Source: Candidatus Methanomethylophilaceae archaeon
GTDB taxonomy: Archaea; Thermoplasmatota; Thermoplasmata; Methanomassiliicoccales; Methanomethylophilaceae
Reading direction: 5' to 3'
Assembly (NCBI GenBank): GCA_017519045.1
Contig: JAFWTC010000066.1
Span: forward strand, 1-33,264
Length of the DNA: 33,264 nt
The notes beneath the pieces are model-generated. The model did no database searches. It was not told where the DNA came from and was given only the letters and a program-made list of their open reading frames with translations. Made by a program: the position numbers and the translations under genes. Positions 4,201-33,011 of the stretch are shown here, piece by piece (the first letter of the stretch is position 1; the number at the start of each line of letters is the position of its first letter).

Positions 4201-4449
4201 TTCGTCGGAATCATCGGATTCGTAGGATTGGTGGTGCCGCACGTGTGCCGCATGATACTCGGCGGGGACCACAGGCTGGTCCTTCCGGCCTCGATGGTCC
4301 TGGGGGCGGCCCTGATGCTGCTGGCGGACCTCCTGGCGAGGATGATCATGATACCTTTGGAGCTGCCCGTGGGGGCCATCACCACCGTGGTGGGCGTGCC
4401 GCTGTTCGCCTACCTTCTGGTCAAGAGGGGGAAGATGTACAATGGATGA
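1264..4449 (+). CDS. Fusion of secreted DUF4430-like/beta-propeller region with a BtuC/FecCD permease
   Basis: One uninterrupted frame of 1061 residues starts at the ATG that overlaps the preceding stop. In order: a signal peptide or anchor (1-30, hydrophobic LLATLVVAASFAML); a DUF4430-like module (about 36-135) related to the one in the upstream binding protein; a PQQ-type beta-propeller (about 155-650) with recurring blades such as VFVGTYSGKLFALDASTGE; a transmembrane helix (about 661-683) followed by the basic LARRKN; a linker; and a full ten-helix FecCD permease (about 719-1061) with RLPRAIAAIGVGVGLAIAG, NPMVDPYIMG and GFVGLVVPHVCRM. The extra helix returns the chain to the cytoplasm, so the permease keeps its usual N-in topology, which supports a real fusion. 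An internal ATG at 3334 could start a separate permease, but it has no clear ribosome site. Usual BtuC proteins have about 330 residues. Confidence 0.85.
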   Translation: MNGLKGALCTSVLLATLVVAASFAMLSSEADDVGKQVLIDMGDGDTYWSPASSGSIASALSEAAEKAGLELKMDGGNVSVDGISSITVGEQTVGWRLYVWEDAWKDVTGSVSMDSPLSSSMALGLYPAGTVPTETPVHKESWSQVRGNASMDRMMVADLDSDEEMKTVYAWSRGSNDYVTGTVLVARGNAYAFFNGGYMNTQSTPALYCADRFTGETKWIAEVPAGVGYETMTGCIVGDYYYLPTSYGYIYKIPLEGPGEDSLYVQLSSRLLTDSKKAPAVTYVGYKNPGDESYSAAAVEAMDTTAFDVPVEVGRSYDIVISDGERTYKGRMDVNAAGALGVKIVGSTAEDKALIADFSTRVTHSYSDVSKVFVSKTKSPTLEGRNIYNTGPASLTFYGGAIFFGTSAGYAYAMDLDLNVLWKSDLSGQNYYDAVMVDDGRVFVGTYSGKLFALDASTGEIVSYVEAASFPSTVYGDGGRVCTPVKIDDILFFSTSDGLGMNSTQGGFCAYAFKNDAFVKVYSETSYGQGSTFMTPVASDKFKGVYFATDYGLMRLSTDMKLEVLNEAISGIRASPFLVNGTDLLMQDYAYAKNGVGGNMYRVGLDGKILAQFQRPAEVDQWTMSPMIAVGDRIYSGTDNGFFIVEGKMPSVGQEEKDAGINPLWIAIGILAAAIAALLAVSYLLARRKNMSVGKYLGSKFSAVSGFRNDSMSKTKANKRRLAFVLVTGILAMLAMFICCLAYGPSMNMSPWEAMSNLFSAVEKGGNGLTLPELVVYESRLPRAIAAIGVGVGLAIAGCVYQAVIRNPMVDPYIMGVSSGAGTFAVAGIASGFTFFGILENSDYMVPVLAIVGGLIAFGLTMLLASKAGNTATGYVLAGVVIGLAFTSVQTVILTTSDSDKLHNAISWLYGSFTSVDWGTVWLIFFPALFISFAFFIWAKELNLVLLGDDNAQQMGLNVKRFDAIMLIMASVLTSVCVAFVGIIGFVGLVVPHVCRMILGGDHRLVLPASMVLGAALMLLADLLARMIMIPLELPVGAITTVVGVPLFAYLLVKRGKMYNG

Positions 4450-5347
4450 GCAGCCGCTTCTGGAGATAAGGGGCCTGAACAAGATCTACGACAACGGGTT
4501 CCACGCGGTGCGCGACGTGTCGTTCAGCCTCCCCGCCGGGAAGCTGGTGGGGCTGATCGGCCCCAACGGATGCGGGAAGTCGACGATGATGAGATGCATC
4601 AACAAGATGCACTCCATAACGTCCGGGGACGTCCTCATCGACGGGAGGTCGGTCCTGGACCAGAGCGTCACGGAGATAGCCAAGCAGGTAGCGAACGTCC
4701 CCGCCGAGCTGAAGAACAGCTTCGGGCTGACCGTGTACGAGACCGTCATGCTAGGCCGCTACCCCCATCTCAGGAACCTGTGGTGGGAGACCGACGAGGA
4801 CGAGACCGAGGTCATCGACGCGATGGAGAAGTTCGGCATCAAGCACCTGCAGGACCGCCCCATAAACATGCTCTCCTCCGGGGAGATGCAGAGGGTGCTG
4901 ATCGCCAAGGCCTACGTGCAGGAGCCCAGGCTGATGCTGGTGGACGAGCCGACGTCCCATCTGGACATGAAGTACAAGCTGAACGTCATGGAGTACCTCC
5001 GCGCCATGGTCAAGCAGAACATGACCGCGCTGGTCGCCGAGCACGACATCTCGCTGATGGCCAGGTACTGCGACCTGTGCGTCATCATGAAGAAGGGGCA
5101 GCTGGTGGCCGTCGGGAACCCGAAGGAGGTCATCACCGAGGACCTGGTGCGCGACGTGTACGACGTGATAGCCAACGTCGGCGTCGACAAGGACGGGGAG
5201 ATATACGTCCTGCCGAAGAAGTTCGCCGGCGACTACAGGCTCCGACGGCTTCGCAACTGCTCCGCGCCTCTGCGGTTCGACGGATCCAGCGGTCATGCCG
5301 GCGGTGGCGGCAAGACGCCGTCCATGATTTACTATGTCTTAGACTAG
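4442..5347 (+). CDS. ABC importer ATPase, BtuD/FecE type
   Basis: Cytoplasmic ATPase that powers the permease encoded just upstream; the genes overlap by 8 nt. It has Walker A GPNGCGKST (near residue 40), signature LSSGEMQ, Walker B LMLVDEPTS and switch histidine AEHD. Length is 301 residues, somewhat longer than usual because of a basic, glycine-rich tail after GDYRLRRLRN that is not a recognised domain. This is the only gene in the window that ends with TAG. A TAA follows one codon later (TAG ACA TAA), so readthrough would add only two residues. The last codons lie inside an inverted repeat (5333-5352). Family assignment is firm; the substrate is inferred only from its partners. Confidence 0.93.
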   Translation: MDEQPLLEIRGLNKIYDNGFHAVRDVSFSLPAGKLVGLIGPNGCGKSTMMRCINKMHSITSGDVLIDGRSVLDQSVTEIAKQVANVPAELKNSFGLTVYETVMLGRYPHLRNLWWETDEDETEVIDAMEKFGIKHLQDRPINMLSSGEMQRVLIAKAYVQEPRLMLVDEPTSHLDMKYKLNVMEYLRAMVKQNMTALVAEHDISLMARYCDLCVIMKKGQLVAVGNPKEVITEDLVRDVYDVIANVGVDKDGEIYVLPKKFAGDYRLRRLRNCSAPLRFDGSSGHAGGGGKTPSMIYYVLD

Positions 5348-10253: not shown

Positions 10254-11906
10254 ATGAGGGACATCAACCTAAGATACATCAGGGAGACCTTCGACGAGAA
10301 GGGGAACCTAAAGCATCTGGACATAGACTGCCCTGACAGTTTCAACTTCGCCTACGACATAGTGGACGACATCGCGATCAACGACCCTGGCAGGAGGGCG
10401 CTGATCTGGACCGACGAGAGCGGGGCGGAGAAGATATTCACGTTCGCCGACATCAAGAGGATGAGCGACAAGACCTGCAACTACTTCGCGTCCAAGGGCA
10501 TCGCCAAGGGAGACTTCGTGATGCTCGTTCTGAAGAACAACTACCAGTTCTGGTACGTAATCACCGCTCTGCACAAGATGGGCGCCGTCCCGGTCCCTGC
10601 GACGTTCATGCTCAAGCCGCACGACATCGACTACCGCATAAGGGCCGCGAGCATCAAGGCGGCCGTGGTGACCTCCCTGACCGATGCGGCGGACTCCTTC
10701 GACGCCGCCGAGTCCACGAAGGAGCTGTCCTGCAAGTTCATCGTCGGCGGGAAGCGGGACGGATGGCTCGATTTCGACTCGGAGGTCGAGAAGTTCTCGG
10801 ATAAGTGGGAGAGGGTCCCCACGCACAAGACGGACCGCTTCCTGATGTACTTCACGTCCGGGACGTCCGACAACCCCAAGATGGCCGTCCACGACCAGAC
10901 CTACCCGCTGGGGCACATACTCCTCGCCAAATACTGGCATCAGGTCGACCCCGACGGCATCCACTGGACGGTGGCGGACACCGGATGGGCCAAGACGGCC
11001 TGGGGACGCCTCTACTCGGTCTGGCTGATGGAGGGGGCATCGTTCGTCTTCGAGTTCGACAGGTTCGACCCGCACAAGATCCTGGCCATGATAGAGAAGT
11101 ACAGGATAACCACGTTCTGCTGCCCTCCGACGATGTTCAGGCTGTATCTGAACGCCGGGGTCGAAGGATACGACCTCTCGTCCCTGAAGAACTGCTGCAT
11201 CGCGGGCGAGGCGCTCAACCCGGACACTTTCAACAAGTGGGAGGAGGCCACCGGCCTCAAGCTGATGGAGGCGTTCGGCCAGACCGAATCCTCGGTCATC
11301 GTCGGCACCATAAAGGGCATGACCCCCAAGCCCGGGTCCATGGGCAGGCCCTCCCCGCAGTACCGCGTCGAGATCGTCGACGAGGACGGGGAGCCCTGCG
11401 AGGTCGGAGAGGAGGGCGAGATAGTCGTCAGCATCGAGCCCAGGGTCCCCGGGATCTTCGTGGAATACTACCGCGACCCGGAGAAGACCGCCTTCACCCT
11501 GCGCGACGGATGGCACCACACCGGGGACGTCGCCTGGAAGGACGAGGACGGGTACTACTGGTACTCCGGGAGGAACGACGACATAATCAAGTCCTCCGGG
11601 TACAGGATCAGCCCGTTCGAGGTCGAGAGCTGCGCCCTGGAGCATCCCGCGGTGCTCGAATGCGCCGTCACCGGGGTCCCGGACCCGGTCAGGGGACAGC
11701 TGGTCAAGGCGACGATAGTCCTCCGCGAGGGCTACGAGCCCACCGACGAGCTGAAGAAGGAGATCCAGGACTACGTCAAGCACAACACCGCCCCCTACAA
11801 GTACCCGAGGGCGATGGAGTTCGTCAAGGAGCTCCCCAAATCCATCAGCGGGAAGGTCAAGAGGGTGGACATAAGAAGGAAGGACTCCGAGAGGAGGAAG
11901 GATTGA
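10254..11906 (+). CDS. AMP-forming acyl-CoA synthetase, medium-chain (ACSM/MacS-like), copy 2
   Basis: 550-residue paralog of the preceding synthetase, with its own promoter. It carries MYFTSGTSDNPKM (again without the usual TSGTTG glycine), EAFGQTESSV, WHHTGDVAWKDEDGYYWYSG and the lysine in SISGKVKR. The start ATG at 10254 follows GGGACAAGGG; in-frame codons further upstream lie in AT-rich non-coding sequence. The N-terminal two thirds differ clearly from copy 1, including the pocket-forming region around WLMEGASFVFEF against WIMESAVFVYEY. The C-terminal domain is virtually the same protein. Different acid specificities with a shared, homogenised CoA-handling domain is a reasonable inference. 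Confidence 0.9.
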   Translation: MRDINLRYIRETFDEKGNLKHLDIDCPDSFNFAYDIVDDIAINDPGRRALIWTDESGAEKIFTFADIKRMSDKTCNYFASKGIAKGDFVMLVLKNNYQFWYVITALHKMGAVPVPATFMLKPHDIDYRIRAASIKAAVVTSLTDAADSFDAAESTKELSCKFIVGGKRDGWLDFDSEVEKFSDKWERVPTHKTDRFLMYFTSGTSDNPKMAVHDQTYPLGHILLAKYWHQVDPDGIHWTVADTGWAKTAWGRLYSVWLMEGASFVFEFDRFDPHKILAMIEKYRITTFCCPPTMFRLYLNAGVEGYDLSSLKNCCIAGEALNPDTFNKWEEATGLKLMEAFGQTESSVIVGTIKGMTPKPGSMGRPSPQYRVEIVDEDGEPCEVGEEGEIVVSIEPRVPGIFVEYYRDPEKTAFTLRDGWHHTGDVAWKDEDGYYWYSGRNDDIIKSSGYRISPFEVESCALEHPAVLECAVTGVPDPVRGQLVKATIVLREGYEPTDELKKEIQDYVKHNTAPYKYPRAMEFVKELPKSISGKVKRVDIRRKDSERRKD

Positions 11907-25052: not shown

Positions 25053-25832
25053 TCACTCTTCGAGAACGTCCAGGCACGCCTGGAGCATGTCCTTGAACGT
25101 GGTCTTCTCGGGAACTATGCGGGGAGGATGGCCCAGCTCCTTCAGCCTCATGGACGTGGGCCTGCCTATCGCCGCGACGGCCGTCGAATCCAGCATGGAA
25201 TCGGCGCGGTCGCCGAACCTCTCGCGCAGCCTCCCGATGAAGACGGACGCGGACATTGGACTGGTGAACGCCACCGCATCCAGGCATCCGGCCTCCAGCG
25301 CATCGAATATCCTCGACAACTCCGGGGTCTCCCCCGCCTCCTCGAGACGGTACGACTGGAACAACACGACCTCGGCCCCGGCCTCCTCCAATCCCTGCAC
25401 CAGGACGTCAGAGCCGGAATCCGACCTCACCAGCATGACCTTGCGACCGGAAACCAGTCCGGAGAGCATGTCCACCACTCCATATGAGCTGTAGTCGTCC
25501 TGAGGCATCATCCCGGCGACGACCCCGTGAAGACGGAGGACGTCGGACGTGTGAGGCCCTATGGACACCACGCGGCAGCCTGAGAACAGGGAGGCGAGCC
25601 TCTCGTCCCCCCATCTCCGGGCGCACGCCTCGACGGCAGTCCCGGACCCGAACACGGCGAAGTCGACCAGATTCCGACTCAAGAGGCCCTCGGCGGCGTC
25701 GAACTGCTCCTGGACGCCCTCGATTATGCGGAGGGAAGGGGCGGCCATCGCCGTCATCCCCAGGGACTCCGCAAGCCTCAGCGACTCTGGAATCTTGTCC
25801 TCCGGGCGGGTGAATGCCACCCTCAGGCTCAT
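25053..25832 (-). CDS. hemD: Uroporphyrinogen-III synthase
   Basis: 259 residues, normal length. It closes hydroxymethylbilane with inversion of ring D to give uroporphyrinogen III. The family is poorly conserved; support comes from MSLRVAFTRPEDKIPES at the start, FAVFGSGTAVEA, the YR(L/V)EE turn in FQSYRLEEAGETPE, DAVAFTSPMSASVF (matching the usual FTS...V motif) and AAIGRPTSMRLKELG near the end. It is the last gene of the tetrapyrrole operon; its ATG overlaps the cobA stop. The placement with hemC and cobA makes the call strong. Confidence 0.92.
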   Translation of the reverse strand: MSLRVAFTRPEDKIPESLRLAESLGMTAMAAPSLRIIEGVQEQFDAAEGLLSRNLVDFAVFGSGTAVEACARRWGDERLASLFSGCRVVSIGPHTSDVLRLHGVVAGMMPQDDYSSYGVVDMLSGLVSGRKVMLVRSDSGSDVLVQGLEEAGAEVVLFQSYRLEEAGETPELSRIFDALEAGCLDAVAFTSPMSASVFIGRLRERFGDRADSMLDSTAVAAIGRPTSMRLKELGHPPRIVPEKTTFKDMLQACLDVLEE

Positions 25833-26572
25833 CTCAGGTCACCGAGGACGTCGTGCAGCGTGGCCACGGTCCCTATCACCATGATGCCGGGCGCCTTCAG
25901 CCCTTTGGACGATATGGTCTCCTCCAGGCGGGAAACAGTGGTGCGCTCTATCCTCTGCCTGGGGGTGGACCCTTCGGTGATGATGGCCGCGGGGGTGTCG
26001 GGATCCATTCCTCCTGCCACGAGCTCCGACGAGATGTGCCCGGCGTTGCCCATGCCCATGAGGATCACCAGGGTGCCATGGCCTCCGACGAGCGCGCGCC
26101 AGTCGATGCGGTCCTCGTCCCTGTCGGACTTCTCATGGCCCGTCAGGAACGTGACCAGCGGGGTGTGGTCCCTGTGTGTCACGGGTATCCCGCACAGCTC
26201 CGGGACGGAGATGGTGGACGAGATCCCGGGGACCACGTGCACCTCCATTCCCGCCTTCCTGAGCTCCTCGGCCTCCTCTGCGCCGCGGCCGAACATGAAC
26301 GGATCCCCGCCTTTCAGACGGACGACTAGCTTTCCGGCCTCGGCCAGCTCCACGAGCTTGGCGTTGGTCTGGTCCTGGGTCATGGTGTGGTTCCCGCCCC
26401 TCTTCCCCGCGTCTATGAGGAGGGCCCCCTCCTTGCATTCCTTCAATATGTCGTGGTTGGCCAGCGCGTCGTACACGACCGCGTCCGCCTGCTTGATGAG
26501 TTCCGACGCCCTTACGGTGAGCAGCCCCGGATCGCCCGGGCCGGCGCCTACTAGATAGACCTTTCCTGCCAT
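25829..26572 (-). CDS. cobA: Uroporphyrinogen-III C-methyltransferase (SUMT)
   Basis: 247-residue SAM-dependent enzyme that methylates uroporphyrinogen III at C-2 and C-7 to give precorrin-2, the entry to sirohaem, F430 and corrinoids. Motifs: VYLVGAGPGDPGLLTVRA at the N-terminus, VRLKGGDPFMFGRGAEEAEE, VVPGISSTISVPELCGIPVT and THRDHTPLVTFLTGHE. The long open frame continues upstream of the true start into hemC; the ATG ending at 26572 is chosen because MAGKVYLVGAG is the expected N-terminus. It begins 5 nt after the hemC stop and overlaps hemD by ATGA. It is the stand-alone form, without fused dehydrogenase. Confidence 0.96.
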   Translation of the reverse strand: MAGKVYLVGAGPGDPGLLTVRASELIKQADAVVYDALANHDILKECKEGALLIDAGKRGGNHTMTQDQTNAKLVELAEAGKLVVRLKGGDPFMFGRGAEEAEELRKAGMEVHVVPGISSTISVPELCGIPVTHRDHTPLVTFLTGHEKSDRDEDRIDWRALVGGHGTLVILMGMGNAGHISSELVAGGMDPDTPAAIITEGSTPRQRIERTTVSRLEETISSKGLKAPGIMVIGTVATLHDVLGDLR

Positions 26573-26577
26573 TTTCC

Positions 26578-27438
26578 TCACTCTCCCCTGAGCCTTCCGG
26601 CTATGTTCGCTATGTCCTCTTCCTTGTAATCGTGAGGGATTACGACGTACTCGTGCACCGGCATTCCGGTCATGTAGGAGGCGGCCCTGACGCCGAACCC
26701 TCCGACCAGCTTCCTCACGTTGATCCCCACGGGCGAGGAGCACCCCGCCCCCAGGGCCTTCATTATGAGACGCTCGATGGTCACGCACTCCCTGGTGACC
26801 TTGTCGTCGATGGCGGAGAGGATGGCCAGCGTCTCCTCGTCGTCCGACCTGCACTCGATGGCGACCGCCCCCTGGGCAGGAGCCGGCACGAACGCCGAGG
26901 GGTCGAGGACGTAGGCCTCCCTTCCGATTCCCATACGATGGAGCCCGGCCTTGGCGAGGACGATGGCGTCGTACTCCCCCTTGTCGAGCTTGTCCATCCT
27001 GGTGTGGATGTTCCCCCTCAGAGGGACGCACTCCACGTCCGGCCTGGCCTCCTTGATCATGGATATGCGCCTGATCGAGGAGGTCCCTATCCTGGCCCCC
27101 GCCTTCAGGCTCTCCAGAGGGCATGGGAGGATGACGTCCTCCACGGGGTCCCTCCTCATTATCGCCCCGATGGCGAGCCCGGGGGCCATGTCTATCGGGA
27201 TGTCCTTGAGCGAGTTGACGGAGACGTCTATCCTCCCTTGGAGCAGGGCCTCGTCCAGCTCCCTGACGAACGCTCCGACGGCGCCCATCTTGTCCAGGGA
27301 CGAGGTGAGGTCGATGTCCCCCATGGCCTTCATCCCGGTCACGTCCAGGGCCCCCTTGAACCCGGAGGCGCGCATGGCGTCGACGAACATCTCCGTCTGC
27401 CTCATGGCGAGGGCGCTCTCCCTGGTCCCGACCTTCAT
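26578..27438 (-). CDS. hemC: Hydroxymethylbilane synthase (porphobilinogen deaminase)
   Basis: 286-residue enzyme that polymerises four porphobilinogens into hydroxymethylbilane. It begins MKVGTRESALAMRQTEMFVD (canonical KIGTRxSxLALxQ) and carries DIDLTSSLDKMGAVGAFVRE, VNSLKDIPIDMAPG, IGTSSIRRISMIKEARPDV and PAPAQGAVAIECRSDD. The dipyrromethane cofactor would attach to the cysteine of ALGAGCSSPVGI. The start at 27438 overlaps the hemL stop by 4 nt. All expected catalytic segments are present and the length is typical. Confidence 0.96.
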   Translation of the reverse strand: MKVGTRESALAMRQTEMFVDAMRASGFKGALDVTGMKAMGDIDLTSSLDKMGAVGAFVRELDEALLQGRIDVSVNSLKDIPIDMAPGLAIGAIMRRDPVEDVILPCPLESLKAGARIGTSSIRRISMIKEARPDVECVPLRGNIHTRMDKLDKGEYDAIVLAKAGLHRMGIGREAYVLDPSAFVPAPAQGAVAIECRSDDEETLAILSAIDDKVTRECVTIERLIMKALGAGCSSPVGINVRKLVGGFGVRAASYMTGMPVHEYVVIPHDYKEEDIANIAGRLRGE

Positions 27439-28697
27439 GCCTTCACCTTCTTCAGGAACGACTCGAACGCGGACGTGATCCTTCCGACGTCCTCCTGCGT
27501 GTGCGCGGAAGACATGAACTCCACCTCCAGCGCCGAAGGCGGAAGGTAGATCCCCTGGTCCAGCATATGGCGGAACAACGCGGAGAAAACCGTCCTGTCC
27601 ACGCCCTGGGCCTCCGTCCCGTTGGAGATGGAGCCGCATCCCAGGCCTATGGAGAACATGGACCCGACGCACTGGATGCATCCCTCGGTACCGGAATCCT
27701 CCAGATGGTCCCTGAGGGCGGACACGAGGTCGGCGGTGGACCTGTTGAGGTCGTCGTACCTCCCGTCCATGTGCTTCAGCAGCGCGTAGCCGGCGGCGGC
27801 GCTGATCGGGTTCCCGGCGAACGTGCCTGCCGCGTAGACCTTCCCGGCGGGAGCCACGTTCTCCATGATCTCCCTCCTTCCTCCGAAGGCGCCGGCGGGG
27901 AATCCTCCGCCTATGATCTTCCCCATGGTGGTCATGTCGGGGGTCACGCCGTACAGCTTCTGCGCCCCTCCCTCCGAGAGCCTCATCCCGGTTATGACCT
28001 CGTCGAATATCAGCAGGACCCCGTACTCCCGGGTTATCCTGCGCATTTCCTCCAGATACCCCTTCTTCGGCGGGACGACCCCGACGTTCCCCATGACGGG
28101 CTCCATTATGACGGCCGCGATGTCCTCGTTCCTGTCCAGGAGCGACTCGAAGGCGCCGGCGTCGTTGTACTCCACGGAATACGTGTTCCTGACCGCGTCC
28201 GCAGGCACTCCCGCAGACCCGGGGACCCCGCGGGCCGATCCCGATCCGGCGGCCACCAGGACGGCGTCATGGGCGCCGTGGAACCCTCCGTTCATCTTGA
28301 CTATGCCGTTCTTCCCGGTGTAGCCCCTGGCCAGCCTTATGGCATGCATGGTGGCCTCCGTGCCCGAGCAGGCCAGGCGGACCATGTCGCATGACGGCAT
28401 GCGCCTGGTTATCTCCTCTATGAGCCTGAGCTCCGGCTCCGAGGGGGCGCCGTAGACCGTGCCCAGGGCGACGGCGTCCTTGACGGCGTCGATTACGTCG
28501 GGACAAGCGTGCCCGGCGATCAAGGGGCCGTACGCCATGCACAGGTCGACGTATTCCTTCCCGTCGACGTCGAAGATGCGGGAACCCTGGCCCTTGCTCA
28601 TGAAGAGGGGGTTCGGGGAGAAGGCGCGCACCGGGCTGGAGACGCCTCCGGGAGTGAGCGCCTTGGAGCATGAATACAGCTCGGAGGACCTGCTCAT
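27435..28697 (-). CDS. hemL: Glutamate-1-semialdehyde 2,1-aminomutase
   Basis: 420-residue PLP enzyme, second step of the C5 route, turning glutamate-1-semialdehyde into 5-aminolevulinate. Landmarks: SRSSELYSCSKALTPGGVSS, the substrate loop PLIAGHACPDVIDAV, ACSGTEATMHAIRLARGYTG, GGFHGAHDAVLV, LIFDEVITGMRLSEGG and the PLP lysine in TMGKIIGGGFPAGAFGG. The start ATG at 28697 overlaps the hemB stop (ATGA). This is the typical enzyme of organisms that make tetrapyrroles from glutamyl-tRNA. Confidence 0.96.
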   Translation of the reverse strand: MSRSSELYSCSKALTPGGVSSPVRAFSPNPLFMSKGQGSRIFDVDGKEYVDLCMAYGPLIAGHACPDVIDAVKDAVALGTVYGAPSEPELRLIEEITRRMPSCDMVRLACSGTEATMHAIRLARGYTGKNGIVKMNGGFHGAHDAVLVAAGSGSARGVPGSAGVPADAVRNTYSVEYNDAGAFESLLDRNEDIAAVIMEPVMGNVGVVPPKKGYLEEMRRITREYGVLLIFDEVITGMRLSEGGAQKLYGVTPDMTTMGKIIGGGFPAGAFGGRREIMENVAPAGKVYAAGTFAGNPISAAAGYALLKHMDGRYDDLNRSTADLVSALRDHLEDSGTEGCIQCVGSMFSIGLGCGSISNGTEAQGVDRTVFSALFRHMLDQGIYLPPSALEVEFMSSAHTQEDVGRITSAFESFLKKVKA

Positions 28698-29674
28698 CTC
28701 CTCTCCCTCAGCTTGCGCGCCGCCTCTTTGGCGTAATAGGTTATTATGATGTCCGCGCCGGCCCTCTTGATGGCCAGCAGCGATTCCATCATGACCCTGT
28801 CCTCGTCTATCCATCCGTTGGCGGCCGCCGCCTTCATCATGGCGTACTCGCCTGAGACCTGGTAGGCCGCGATCGGGAGGTTGTAGGAGTCCGCCGCCTC
28901 GCGGATTATGTCCAGATAGGGGCCGGCGGGCTTCACCATGATTATGTCGCAGCCCTCGGCCACGTCCATGTCGATCTCCCTCATCGCCTCGCGCCTGTTT
29001 CCGCAGGGCATCTGGTATCCGGCGCGGTCGCCTTTGCCGGGCGCGGAGCAGGCCACGTCCCTGAACGGCCCGTAATAGGCGCTGTAGAACTTGGCGCTGT
29101 ACGCCATGATCGGGACGTCCTGGAACCCGGCCTCGTCCAGAGCGAAGCGGATGTAGGCGATCTGCCCGTCCATCATCCCGCTGGGCGCTATCATGTCGGC
29201 CCCGGCCTTCGCCTGGGACACGGCGATCCTGCCGTACAGCTCGATGGTGGCGTCGTTCACCACGTTCCCGCATCCGTCCAGAACGCCGCAATGGCCGTGG
29301 TCGGTGTACTCGCACATGCATAGGTCGGCGATGACCAACAGGTCCGAGGCCGCCTTCAATCCCCTGATTGCTTCCTGGACGACGCCGGTGTCCGAATACG
29401 CGTCCTACCCAAGAGGGTCCTTGGACGCCGGTATCCCGAAGACGAGCACCGCGCCCACCCCCGCGTCCTCCAGCTCCTTGGCGATCCCGTCGTATCCGGA
29501 GAGCGGATACGTGATCACCCCGGGCATGGAGTCCGTGGTGCGGGGGGAGTCTATGTTCGCATCGAAGAACAGCGGCAGGACCAGCTCCGACGGGTCCAGC
29601 CTGGTCTCGGCGACCATGTCCCTGATCTTCCGGCTCGATCTGAGCCTCCTCATGCGTACCTGTGGATAATACAT
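28694..29674 (-). CDS. hemB: Porphobilinogen synthase with an in-frame TAG codon at position 90
   Basis: Joins two 5-aminolevulinates to porphobilinogen. 326 residues if the TAG at 29405-29407 is decoded, the normal family length. Both sides are in the same frame and conserved. Before it come MVAETRLDPSELVLPLFFD and VLVFGIPASKDPLG; after it DAYSDTGVVQEAIRGLK and LCMCEYTDHGHCGVL with zinc-ligand cysteines. The Schiff-base lysines are K195 (MAYSAKFYSAYYGPFR) and K248 (IMVKPAGPYLDI). The TAG falls where relatives have serine in KD-x2-GS-x-AY. No frameshift or decay is visible elsewhere. In a pyrrolysine-using archaeon the codon would be read as pyrrolysine; a TCG-to-TAG mutation or sequencing error is the alternative. 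Both ends couple normally to hemA and hemL. Confidence 0.85.
29405..29407 (-). other. In-frame TAG codon within hemB (candidate pyrrolysine codon)
   Basis: The codons on the minus strand read CTT GGG TAG GAC GCG TAT, giving L-G-[TAG]-D-A-Y. Frame and homology continue on both sides. TAG is used as a gene end only once among the 28 genes here. Confidence 0.75.
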
Positions 29675-29675
29675 T

Positions 29676-30920
29676 TCAACGATCCTCCAATCCGAACAGC
29701 CTCCTGACGGCGGCGCAGGTCTCCCAGTCGCCTTCCCTTGAGGCTTTCCTCATGTTCATGTAAAGCTCCGAAGTGAGATTGTTCACGAGCGACCTGGTCA
29801 GGTCCTCTATGACGGATTCCGGGTCCGCCGATTTCAAGCGGGTCCTGGCCATGGAGAGCTCGCGGTCCTTGATCGACGTGAACTTCAGGCTGAGGTCGCG
29901 GATGATCGCGTTGGCCTCAGACTCCGACATCTCCTTCTCTATCTTGGCCAGCTCCTCCCTGATTATGTGCTCCGCGTCCTTTATCTCGGCGGTCCTGCGG
30001 GCCACGTTCTCCATCGCTATGTTCTGCAGGGAGTCCATGGTCTCCAGGGAAACGTTCGGGACGTTCCCGACCTCCGGCTCGATGTTCCTGGGGACAGACA
30101 CGTCTATCATCAGCAGGGGGCGGTCCTTCCTGAACTCCATCGCGCGGACGGCGTTGTCCACATGGACCACGGGATGCGGGGCGGACGTTGCCACCAATAC
30201 GAGGTCGCTGTTCTCCAGCGTCTCGTCCATGCGGTCCCAGGTGACGGCGGTCCCGTTCAGCTGCTCGGCCAGGATGGTGGCGTTCTGGAACGTGCGGTTG
30301 GAGACGAAGACCGCATCCGGGCCCTTGCCTGCGAGGTTCTTGGCTATGACCGCGGCCATGTCTCCGGCTCCGAATATGGCCACCGTCCTGCCCTCCAGGG
30401 ACCCGAGCCTGCGTTCCGCCAGCTCCACGGCGGCGGAACCCACCGACACGGCGCCCTTGTTGAGCGACGTCTCCGACCTGACCCTCTTTCCGACGGTTAG
30501 CGCGTGGTCGAAGAGGAATGAGAGCCTCTTGCCTATGTGCCCGTCGGCGCGCGACTTGATGTACGAATCCCTTATCTGATGCTGGATCTGGTCTTCGCCC
30601 ACTATCAGCGACTCCAGGCCGCATATCACCCTGAAAAGGTGCTTGACACTGGAGTAGTCGTCCAGGATGAACGAGACCTCCCCGTCGCCGGCCGGTATGA
30701 AGTCGCGGGTCAGGCCTTCGAACATCGCCTTCACCGAATCGCCGTCGTCGGTGGCCGTGTAGGCCTCGAAGCGGTTGCAGGTCCTGACTATCAGGTATTC
30801 CTGAACCTTTCCGCATTCGGATATCCTTCCCTCGGCGTTCTTCTCCAGGGCCGTGATGACCTCGTTCAGCCCGGCCACTCCTCCCGCAGACACGTGCGTG
30901 ACGTGATAACTGACTATCAT
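29676..30920 (-). CDS. hemA: Glutamyl-tRNA reductase
   Basis: 414-residue NADPH enzyme that reduces glutamyl-tRNA to glutamate-1-semialdehyde, the first committed step of the C5 pathway. The catalytic cysteine is in LIVRTCNRFEAY; GLESLIVGEDQIQHQIRDSY and GKRVRSETSLNKGAVSVGSA are the substrate-site signatures; TVAIFGAGDMAAVIAKNL is the NADPH Rossmann loop; a long spinal helix with IREELAKIEKEMSESEANAI leads to the dimerisation domain. The start ATG at 30920 overlaps the end of the upstream dehydrogenase gene. It is separated from hemB by one base. Confidence 0.96.
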   Translation of the reverse strand: MIVSYHVTHVSAGGVAGLNEVITALEKNAEGRISECGKVQEYLIVRTCNRFEAYTATDDGDSVKAMFEGLTRDFIPAGDGEVSFILDDYSSVKHLFRVICGLESLIVGEDQIQHQIRDSYIKSRADGHIGKRLSFLFDHALTVGKRVRSETSLNKGAVSVGSAAVELAERRLGSLEGRTVAIFGAGDMAAVIAKNLAGKGPDAVFVSNRTFQNATILAEQLNGTAVTWDRMDETLENSDLVLVATSAPHPVVHVDNAVRAMEFRKDRPLLMIDVSVPRNIEPEVGNVPNVSLETMDSLQNIAMENVARRTAEIKDAEHIIREELAKIEKEMSESEANAIIRDLSLKFTSIKDRELSMARTRLKSADPESVIEDLTRSLVNNLTSELYMNMRKASREGDWETCAAVRRLFGLEDR

Positions 30921-31540
30921 TCCTTCACCATCCCTTCGGCCATGGCCTTCGCCGACTCGACGTCGCCCGCCCTGAGCCTCTCCCAGATCCTGTCGTCATG
31001 GAGTATCCTGCGAAGTACCTCGGCGCGGTCCCTCTGCTCGGGTATGCTCCCCATCACCAGGGGCCTGACATATGACATGACGTCCATCATCGAGTCGAAG
31101 GACTCGTCCAGCACTGGGTCCAGGACCTCCGCCACGTAAGGCGGGAAGGCGGGGACCCTGCCTTCGGATGAGATGCACACGGAGTAGTTGCGCCTTCTTA
31201 TCACCGAGGGTATGAGGACGTCTCCCCCTCCGTGGGCGGAATTAACCAGCACGCCCTGCTCCATGGCGGTGTCGCGGATCATCGCGTTGATCTGCTTGCT
31301 GTCCGTGGCGGCGACCGCGATGAACGCTCCCTCCAGGTACTTCCTCACCGTCGCAGGCGCGATTTCGCACAGGATCACCTCGTCTGCCTCCTCCTCGACC
31401 TCGGGAAGCACCTTCAAAGATACGACGCGTATGCGGAAGCCGTCGAAGTGCCTGATCTTCCTAAGGGCGACGTTCCCGCCGCCGAACACGGTGACTAGAC
31501 GGTCCCCTGCCGAGACGTACAGCGGCGCCATCGCCGGCAT
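30917..31540 (-). CDS. sirC: Precorrin-2 dehydrogenase (sirohydrochlorin-forming)
   Basis: 207-residue NAD-dependent enzyme of the CysG N-domain/SirC/Met8p family that oxidises precorrin-2 to sirohydrochlorin. It has the Rossmann segment LVTVFGGGNVALRKIRHFDG, AFIAVAATDSKQINAMIRD, and the family core VNSAHGGGDVLIPSVIRR then ISSEGRVPAFPPYVAEVLD. The start at 31540 gives the expected short N-terminus and overlaps the cbiL stop; an earlier in-frame start would run deep into cbiL. No methyltransferase domain is fused. It supplies the branch point for F430, sirohaem and corrinoids. Confidence 0.93.
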   Translation of the reverse strand: MPAMAPLYVSAGDRLVTVFGGGNVALRKIRHFDGFRIRVVSLKVLPEVEEEADEVILCEIAPATVRKYLEGAFIAVAATDSKQINAMIRDTAMEQGVLVNSAHGGGDVLIPSVIRRRNYSVCISSEGRVPAFPPYVAEVLDPVLDESFDSMMDVMSYVRPLVMGSIPEQRDRAEVLRRILHDDRIWERLRAGDVESAKAMAEGMVKE

Positions 31541-32253
31541 CAGCAGCCCTTCTCGAAGTTCTTCTTGACTATCAGGGTGGTGAAATACCCGTAGGTCCTG
31601 CCGGTATCGGCGGGGCCGACGTACTCGTCCGGCATTCCCACGTTGCTGACGACGGTCACGCACCCGGGGCCGTATCCCTTGGATTCGAGGATGTCCAGGA
31701 CCTTCTCGACGCTCTTTCCCGCCTTCATGACGACGACGTTGTCGAACTTTTCCAGGGCCTCTTCCAGCATCGGGTTGTCCTTGGCCGACGGAACCACGGC
31801 CAGGCACTGGTCCCCCAGCGTGAGCGGGACGCGGGCCTTGGCGGCGCCTCCGCAGAACGCCGGGATCCCTGGTATTATCTCGGTCTCGTATCCCTTCGAG
31901 CGGACGTACTGCTCCAGATACATGAACGTGCTGTAGATGGAGACGTCGCCGAGGGTGATCAGCGTCACGTCCTTCCCTTGGGAAAGATGCTCTATCACCT
32001 GGTCGCCCGCCTTCCTGCCGAACTCCCAGTAGTCGGCGTTGTCCCCGGTCATCCCGAAGAGGAGGTCGATGACCTCCACCTTGGAGAGGTCCACGACGGG
32101 CTTGATTATGGTGAACGCCGTGCTCTCCTCGCCGGGCTTCTTGACGGGCTTCGCCAGCACGGGCGAGGATTCTATAATCCTTTTCGCCTTCAGGGTCAGC
32201 AGCTCCGGATCCCCGGGGCCGACGCCTATCCCGTAGAGCTTTCCTCTGCTCAT
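31540..32253 (-). CDS. cbiL: Cobalt-factor II / precorrin-2 C20-methyltransferase
   Basis: 237-residue SAM-dependent enzyme that methylates cobalt-factor II at C-20. Motifs: KLYGIGVGPGDPELLTLKA at the N-terminus, VTLITLGDVSIYSTFMYL, IIPGIPAFCGGAAKARVPL and the YGPGCVTVVSNVGMPDE region typical of CbiL/CobI. Sequence alone does not settle the anaerobic (cobalt-early) role, but no oxygen-dependent cobalamin gene is nearby and the likely host is an anaerobe. The ATG overlaps the cbiH stop by 4 nt and its own stop overlaps the next start. Confidence 0.94.
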   Translation of the reverse strand: MSRGKLYGIGVGPGDPELLTLKAKRIIESSPVLAKPVKKPGEESTAFTIIKPVVDLSKVEVIDLLFGMTGDNADYWEFGRKAGDQVIEHLSQGKDVTLITLGDVSIYSTFMYLEQYVRSKGYETEIIPGIPAFCGGAAKARVPLTLGDQCLAVVPSAKDNPMLEEALEKFDNVVVMKAGKSVEKVLDILESKGYGPGCVTVVSNVGMPDEYVGPADTGRTYGYFTTLIVKKNFEKGC

Positions 32254-33011
32254 AGTATACCGTCCATGCGTCCTTTCTCGCGGTACCCCCTGGGCGTTAT
32301 CATTAGGCCGTCGCGCACGTACGTGTTGCTGTTCCCTATGATCACGATGGAGAACATGTCGACGTCGGCGTCCTTGAGCTTCCCGAGGGTGGTAAGCTGC
32401 TTGTGCTCGCCGTCCCTGCCCGCGTTCCTGACTACTCCGACCGGGGTGTCCGGGGAGCGGTATCTCATCAGTATCTCGGCTGCCCTCTCGAGGTAATCGG
32501 TCCTCTTCTTGCTCTTGGGGTTGTACAGCGCGACGATGAAATCGCCCTGCCCGGCGCAGTCGACCCTCTTCATGATCAGGTCTATGGGGGTCATGAGGTC
32601 GGAGAGGCTTATGATCGTCAGATCGTGCATCAGGGGCGCTCCGAGGACGGAGGCGGCCGTGGATGCGGCGGTCATGCCCGGAACGACGTCTATGTCTATG
32701 TCAGCCTTCATCTCGGCGGCGACCTCGTAGACTATCCCGGCCATGCCGTATATTCCCGAGTCCCCGCTGCTGACCATGGCGACCTTCTGGCCCTTCATCG
32801 CCTCCTCGTCGGCCATCTTGCAGCGCTCCACCTCCCTCATCATGCCTGTGGAGATGTACTGGGTGTCCTCCGGAAAATAGCCCTTTATCATGTCGATGTA
32901 GGCCGTGTAGCCGATCACCTTGTCCGCCTCGCGGATGGTCCTCTCGGCGCGGATGGTCATGTTCTCGAGGGCGCCGGGGCCGAACCCGACCACCGAGAGC
33001 TTCCCTTTCAT
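32250..33011 (-). CDS. cbiH: Cobalt-factor III / precorrin-3B C17-methyltransferase
   Basis: 253-residue SAM-dependent, ring-contracting methyltransferase. Motifs: KLSVVGFGPGALENMTIRA, the family mark DKVIGYTAYIDMIKGYFP, VAMVSSGDSGIYGMAGIVYE, DVVPGMTAASTAASVLGAPL and IVALYNPKSKKRTDYLERA. It is the first gene of the nine-gene operon, with a likely promoter about 95 nt upstream. CbiG and the later corrin methyltransferases are not in the window, so the rest of the pathway must be elsewhere. Confidence 0.95.
   Translation of the reverse strand: MKGKLSVVGFGPGALENMTIRAERTIREADKVIGYTAYIDMIKGYFPEDTQYISTGMMREVERCKMADEEAMKGQKVAMVSSGDSGIYGMAGIVYEVAAEMKADIDIDVVPGMTAASTAASVLGAPLMHDLTIISLSDLMTPIDLIMKRVDCAGQGDFIVALYNPKSKKRTDYLERAAEILMRYRSPDTPVGVVRNAGRDGEHKQLTTLGKLKDADVDMFSIVIIGNSNTYVRDGLMITPRGYREKGRMDGIL

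Follow-up and report, generated by a model that had tools for sequence, protein, structure and literature searches.

An in-frame TAG in the hemB gene of a Candidatus Methanomethylophilaceae archaeon, probably decoded as pyrrolysine

The hemB gene of a gut methanogen, a Candidatus Methanomethylophilaceae archaeon (GenBank assembly GCA_017519045.1), carries an in-frame TAG at codon 90, and we estimate a probability of roughly 80%, from sequence evidence, that this organism uses UAG mostly to specify pyrrolysine and that the hemB TAG is read through to give a full-length, pyrrolysine-containing HemB. HemB is most likely one of many TAG-bearing genes decoded in this way, and the hemB TAG adds one more case to a type of code change already described, as opposed to a special switch in cofactor synthesis. 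The gene lies on contig JAFWTC010000066.1, of which positions 1–33,264 are referred to below as the window, within an assembly of 1,906,234 bases in 86 contigs that is 91.24% complete. Pyrrolysine decoding of this codon, proposed in an earlier note on the window, is well supported by the pyl genes, the single hemB, the lack of any sign of decay and the use of TAG as a sense codon in a sample of the genome.

The hemB frame and its neighborhood

The codon 90 TAG is the single stop in the hemB frame ahead of the terminal TGA, confirming that the gene is otherwise uninterrupted, and family profiles run across it (Table 1). The match to the curated profile NF006762 spans residues 3–324 (cut-off 297 bits) and the Pfam ALAD match residues 6–320. 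K195 and K248, which we take to be the catalytic lysines of the active site, both lie downstream of the TAG and are identical in all 104 distinct homologs (from 109 loci supplied), so they are intact as the earlier note had held, and together with the full-length family match they place the product in the HemB family. The same note had described the TAG as replacing a serine in a conserved KD-x2-GS motif; K85 and D86 are indeed invariant and G89 is present in 103 of the 104 homologs, but residue 90 is serine in only 83, and in that respect the claim was a little strong. A split hemB with a downstream restart was rejected, as the next in-frame start codons are a TTG 16 codons on and an ATG 30 codons on. 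Only one ALAD match was found in the whole assembly, and hence no second intact hemB at 91.24% completeness.

The genes around hemB, namely hemA, hemL, hemC, the hemD-like gene, the methyltransferase, the precorrin-2 dehydrogenase-like gene, cbiL and cbiH, are open frames throughout. A one-base gap separates the end of hemA from the start of hemB, and the end of hemB shares an ATGA with the start of hemL (28697–28694), the operon overlap described earlier. Against a second profile, TIGR00713, HemL scores 517.3 bits, slightly below the cut-off of 527.3.

Table 1 Features of the hemB region in the window
Feature	Position	Strand	Evidence
hemD-like (uroporphyrinogen-III synthase)	25053..25832	-	NF004587 163 bits, under cut-off 246
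uroporphyrinogen-III methyltransferase	25829..26575	-	TIGR01469 286 bits, residues 187-424 of ORF 25829-27124; start approximate
hemC (hydroxymethylbilane synthase)	26578..27438	-	TIGR00212 273.5 bits; no stop within PF01379 match
hemL (glutamate-1-semialdehyde aminomutase)	27435..28697	-	NF000818 537.6 bits; start at 28697
hemB (porphobilinogen synthase)	28694..29674	-	326 codons with TAG as a residue; NF006762 457.9 bits; PF00490 E 3.2e-137
in-frame TAG, hemB codon 90	29405..29407	-	Ser/Thr/Cys in 29/29 other family loci read
hemA (glutamyl-tRNA reductase)	29676..30920	-	open frame; TIGR01035 344.2 bits
precorrin-2 dehydrogenase-like (CysG N-terminal domain)	30917..31540	-	TIGR01470 74.5 bits, cut-off 62.3
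cbiL	31540..32253	-	TIGR01467 204.4 bits
cbiH/cobJ	32250..33011	-	TIGR01466 320.9 bits

The statement that TAG ends only one of 28 genes in the window holds roughly, but a crude gene caller ended 4 of its 24 calls there in TAG; one of these is a fragment of hemB, two are low-scoring and one is clear (4442–5347, plus strand). In this last gene the TAG is followed by one codon and then a TAA, so that readthrough would add two residues.

Codon 90 among HemB homologs

A hemB match is present in 62 of 102 family genomes, and a TAG inside that match occurs in the window's genome and in none of the other 61. Alignment at codon 90, which the earlier note had proposed, gave Ser in 22, Thr in 6 and Cys in 1 of the 29 other family loci read, so the TAG is private to the window's genome; a role as a conserved signal was accordingly rejected (1 of 62 hemB-bearing genomes). 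The codon is TCA in the nearest relative (G070) and TCG in a genome of another genus (G008), and TCG is converted to TAG by a one-base change. The UAG in hemB probably arose from a serine codon.

Residue 90 is S in 83, T in 10, Q in 4, E in 2, R in 2, and C, K and L in 1 each of the 104 distinct homologs, a degree of conservation equal to the median of HemB positions. Because long side chains (Q, E, R, K or L) occur there in 10 of the 104, it is plausible that pyrrolysine is tolerated at this position and that full-length porphobilinogen synthase would still be made. In another family genome, G081, the hemB frame has a TAG at its C-terminal end, five codons ahead of the TGA.

Pyrrolysine machinery and the use of TAG across the genome

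The genome holds the full set of pyl genes that had been named as a check on the proposal: PylS, PylB, PylC and PylD each score above their curated cut-offs in one region of contig 8, and a tRNA-Pyl with the anticodon CTA is present. The Pfam matches of MtmB, MtbB and MttB each cross an in-frame TAG. HemB likewise has an in-frame TAG with homology on both sides in a genome with pyl genes, as expected of a pyrrolysine protein. PylBCD would make the pyrrolysine and PylS would load it onto tRNA-Pyl(CUA), which would decode the UAG; we infer both the insertion of pyrrolysine at codon 90 and a functional enzyme.

The use of TAG was assessed in a sample of 59 stretches covering 760,788 of the 1,906,234 bases (40%, not random), by asking for every stop codon whether codon use was coding-like over 40 codons on each side; sites were classed as internal when both sides were coding and no in-frame ATG lay within nine codons. 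TAG had coding sequence upstream at 32 sites, on both sides at 22 and qualified as internal at 18, compared with 449, 29 and 3 sites for TAA and TGA together (internal 18/32 versus 3/449, Fisher's test, 2.7e-21). Taken singly, TAA had 34 sites with coding sequence upstream and 6 two-sided sites, and TGA 415 and 23. An ATG lay within nine codons of 26 of the 29 two-sided TAA and TGA sites versus 4 of the 22 two-sided TAG sites, and most of the former look like neighboring genes that share one frame. Outside the window and a stretch that had been picked for its pyl genes, there were 18 two-sided TAG sites, 15 of them lacking a near ATG. With stricter thresholds, the two-sided fractions over the first 274,203 bases were 8/11 for TAG, 1/12 for TAA and 11/166 for TGA, and a differently retrained, less sensitive coding model gave 3/11 internal TAG and 0/231 internal TAA or TGA.

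For the other ten of the 32 TAG sites the two-sided test was negative; four of them have a TAA or TGA within 40 codons. One of the ten (L093:14999) lies inside the profile match of Nnr and is therefore not a stop, while some of the others may be real stops. Of the 430 one-sided stops, which resemble gene ends, no more than 10 are thus TAG, and within this non-random 40% sample TAG in a coding context is found mainly inside genes (two-sided 22/32 versus 29/449 for TAA and TGA). An archaeal "Pyl code", in which all TAG codons genome-wide stand for pyrrolysine, has reportedly been described with proteomic backing by Kivenson and colleagues in Science in 2025. Scaled up, the sample suggests some tens of TAG-bearing genes in the whole genome.

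Sense use of TAG extends beyond the window's genome to its relatives. Self-trained models placed 3 of 12 TAG sites inside genes in G057 (384,559 bases), 1 of 3 in G062 (183,806 bases) and 3 of 7 in G053 (400,000 bases), versus 1/242, 0/103 and 2/329 for TAA and TGA; among the genomes compared, the window's genome had the most internal TAG sites (19/34). The crude caller ended 53 of 503 calls in TAG in the window's genome, 19 of 273 in G057 and 5 of 289 in G053, counts that include interrupted genes and antisense frames. A homology-based count of stops from such crude calls is weak. With G057 and G053 as the source of queries, the sample of the window's genome showed 4 distinct TAG sites and 1 TGA, but in the other directions the stops were mixed and several, judged by eye, come from antisense open frames: queries from the window's genome gave 2 TAA and 1 TGA in G057 and 5 TAG, 5 TGA and 1 TAA in G053, and G053 against G057 gave 1 TAG and the reverse 1 TGA.

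Other genes with internal stops

Profile matches cross TAG in nine proteins besides HemB: UMP kinase (PyrH), a prenyl-diphosphate synthase, Nnr, dihydroneopterin aldolase (DHNA), MtmB, MtbB, MttB and two ABC transporters. Nnr has two TAGs within its match, and in DHNA, which has no NCBIfam match, the TAG is crossed by the Pfam match. The TAG of PyrH is also private: none of the 25 other genus genomes in which nearly the whole protein was matched has a TAG at that place (G070 had no match). For a PHP protein (L065), an LRR protein (L062) and a large repeat protein (L054), no above-cut-off match was seen crossing the TAG, and five further TAG frames that were scanned (L044, L099, two in L072, and L084) had no profile match. 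Two similar large proteins each carry two TAGs at matching places (L054:18657 and 19191; L063:18784 and 19321).

All three internal TGA sites were also scanned for domains, and only one fell within a domain match, in hdrC (L057:11552–12043). This TGA, at 11744, occupies a Trp codon, no stop is present in 28 other genus genomes with a close match, and no second close copy of hdrC was found in the window's genome. It may be an error, a true nonsense change or a case of TGA readthrough, and its presence indicates that single-base errors or true nonsense changes do occur in this assembly. The hemB TAG could be such a sequencing or assembly error, the true codon 90 being a sense codon (e.g., TCG) and HemB lacking pyrrolysine, and its restriction to this one genome is in keeping with that. 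This reading is possible but unlikely. The 40% sample has about one error-type stop (hdrC) as a baseline and 18 internal TAGs, which makes a random error at hemB roughly a 1-in-18 event, and random errors would not favor TAG.

Selection on hemB and the loss of the gene in relatives

Purifying selection, as judged from substitution rates, acts on both sides of the hemB TAG. Compared with G070, hemB has a dN of 0.041 and a dS of 0.733 (dN/dS 0.056), with a dN/dS of 0.078 upstream and 0.048 downstream of the TAG. A single stop together with a dN/dS of 0.056 is not the pattern of a pseudogene, although a very recent break would not show in these values.

The gene can be lost within the family. No hemB match was found in 40 of the 102 family genomes and no hemC match in 42, near-complete genomes included (hemB is lacking in, e.g., G050, G054, G055 and G064), which is odd for methanogens, since these need F430. 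In G093 the hemB frame is interrupted by a TAA, and a PylD match was not found in that genome. Such cases lend some weight to the reading that the TAG is a true nonsense mutation, with hemB freshly broken in a lineage that is beginning to lose tetrapyrrole synthesis. We regard this as improbable. The adjoining hemA, hemL, hemC and corrin genes are uninterrupted and fit their family profiles, amino-acid changes are not in excess on the window's branch (9 non-synonymous and 15 synonymous changes versus 13 and 8 on the sister branch, with 90 not assigned), and with a tRNA-Pyl present the UAG would probably be read anyway.

Cofactor feedback and comparison with known systems

The earlier note had gone on to propose a feedback between methylamine growth and cofactor supply. 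MtmB, MtbB and MttB require corrinoid, and HemB lies upstream of both corrinoid and F430, so that, if release factor and tRNA-Pyl compete for codon 90, pyrrolysine supply could set the level of HemB and link methylamine growth to corrinoid and F430. The pathway logic stands, and the single hemB agrees with it. Such a switch is nevertheless highly improbable: none of the relatives has TAG at codon 90 (0 of 29 read) or elsewhere inside the hemB profile match (0 of 61), in-frame TAGs are also found in unrelated genes, and the scarcity of TAG among one-sided stops fits constitutive decoding, as argued for Candidatus Methanomethylophilus alvus in passages of PMC4153887. The proposed feedback is unsupported, with the TAG in 1 of 62 hemB-bearing family genomes; the methylamine-corrinoid loop is logically possible, without evidence of its own. 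Drift in an organism whose code has changed fits this rarity, and the scatter of in-frame TAGs among unrelated genes, better than a regulatory design does. With the hemB TAG simply decoded as pyrrolysine, the dependence of tetrapyrrole synthesis on this amino acid would be a by-product, common to UMP kinase, RNA polymerase A'' and others, and no regulatory role would be needed.

Ca. M. alvus is similar as a relative with pyl genes, TAG-bearing proteins and few TAG stops. Passages of Borrel 2014 (PMC4153887) give 16 predicted TAG proteins, some of them from conserved genes, in addition to the methylamine methyltransferases, and a TAG share of 1.6% among stops; HemB, PyrH and RpoA2 are absent from Table 7 of that paper, in contrast to the genome described here. 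The same passages argue that the pyl genes could become essential if a major gene contained a TAG, so the dependency argument of the earlier note was, in general form, already known. In methanogenic archaeon ISO4-H5, 46 genes with in-frame amber codons, including adenylate kinase and geranylgeranyl reductases, are described in passages of PMC5011839, and hemB is not among the amber genes named there. The estimated tens of TAG genes here are of the order of those 46 and exceed the 16 extra proteins of Ca. M. alvus (PMC4153887). A term search of PMC10804542 found neither hemB nor porphobilinogen as a whole word.

Taken by itself, the hemB case is ordinary in a setting where TAG is sense. It brings HemB into the group of products that apparently need pyrrolysine, along with RNA polymerase A'' and UMP kinase, and if so, pyrrolysine synthesis would be essential for growth beyond methylamine use. 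It is also a warning that standard gene calling splits TAG-bearing genes in two.

RNA polymerase A'' and the release factor

It is possible, and we suggest it only tentatively, that central functions have come to require pyrrolysine in a subgroup of the genus, with a TAG in RNA polymerase A'' in seven species and here in HemB, UMP kinase, DHNA and prenyl-diphosphate synthase too, and that the code change may still be deepening, as an NIRS motif in the release factor aRF1 of two genomes could weaken UAG termination. For the question of how an archaeon turns a stop into a sense codon, the shared RNA polymerase TAG and the release factor with NIRS offer a better starting point than hemB.

RpoA2 (L069:2173–3657; TAG at 2473) was found in 26 of 31 genus genomes and carries one in-frame TAG in 7 of the 26, namely the window's genome (G000), G070, G057, G062, G069, G061 and G068 (relatives' loci L101–L106), leaving 19 without it. 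The TAG is at the identical codon in all seven, followed in each by Phe two and Gly five codons later, and since the same codon is affected in seven genomes, this TAG is old and shared. RpoA2 of the TAG-less relatives is continuous through the site, where G053 aligns a Lys. The TAG lies just ahead of the curated A'' domain (residues 111–485), and a split gene with a restart is a less likely alternative; an ATG follows six codons on in G000 and G070 and a GTG twelve codons on in G057, G062, G061 and G068, while G069 has neither within thirteen codons. With no restart codon common to the TAG genomes, that reading is weakened.

The NIKS motif of aRF1 contacts the first base of stop codons. Among 28 genus aRF1 sequences examined (the G070 assembly has no aRF1), 26 cover the motif, which reads NIKS in 24 and NIRS in 2, the latter from the window's genome and G062 (loci L254 and L266). 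Passages of PMC12440015 and PMC4482090 contain nothing on the effect of exchanging the Lys of NIKS for Arg. The NIRS motif did not correlate with TAG load, as G062 (NIRS) has 1 internal TAG in 183,806 bases and G057 (NIKS) 3 in 384,559, and of the six TAG-clade genomes in which the motif could be read, four retain NIKS.
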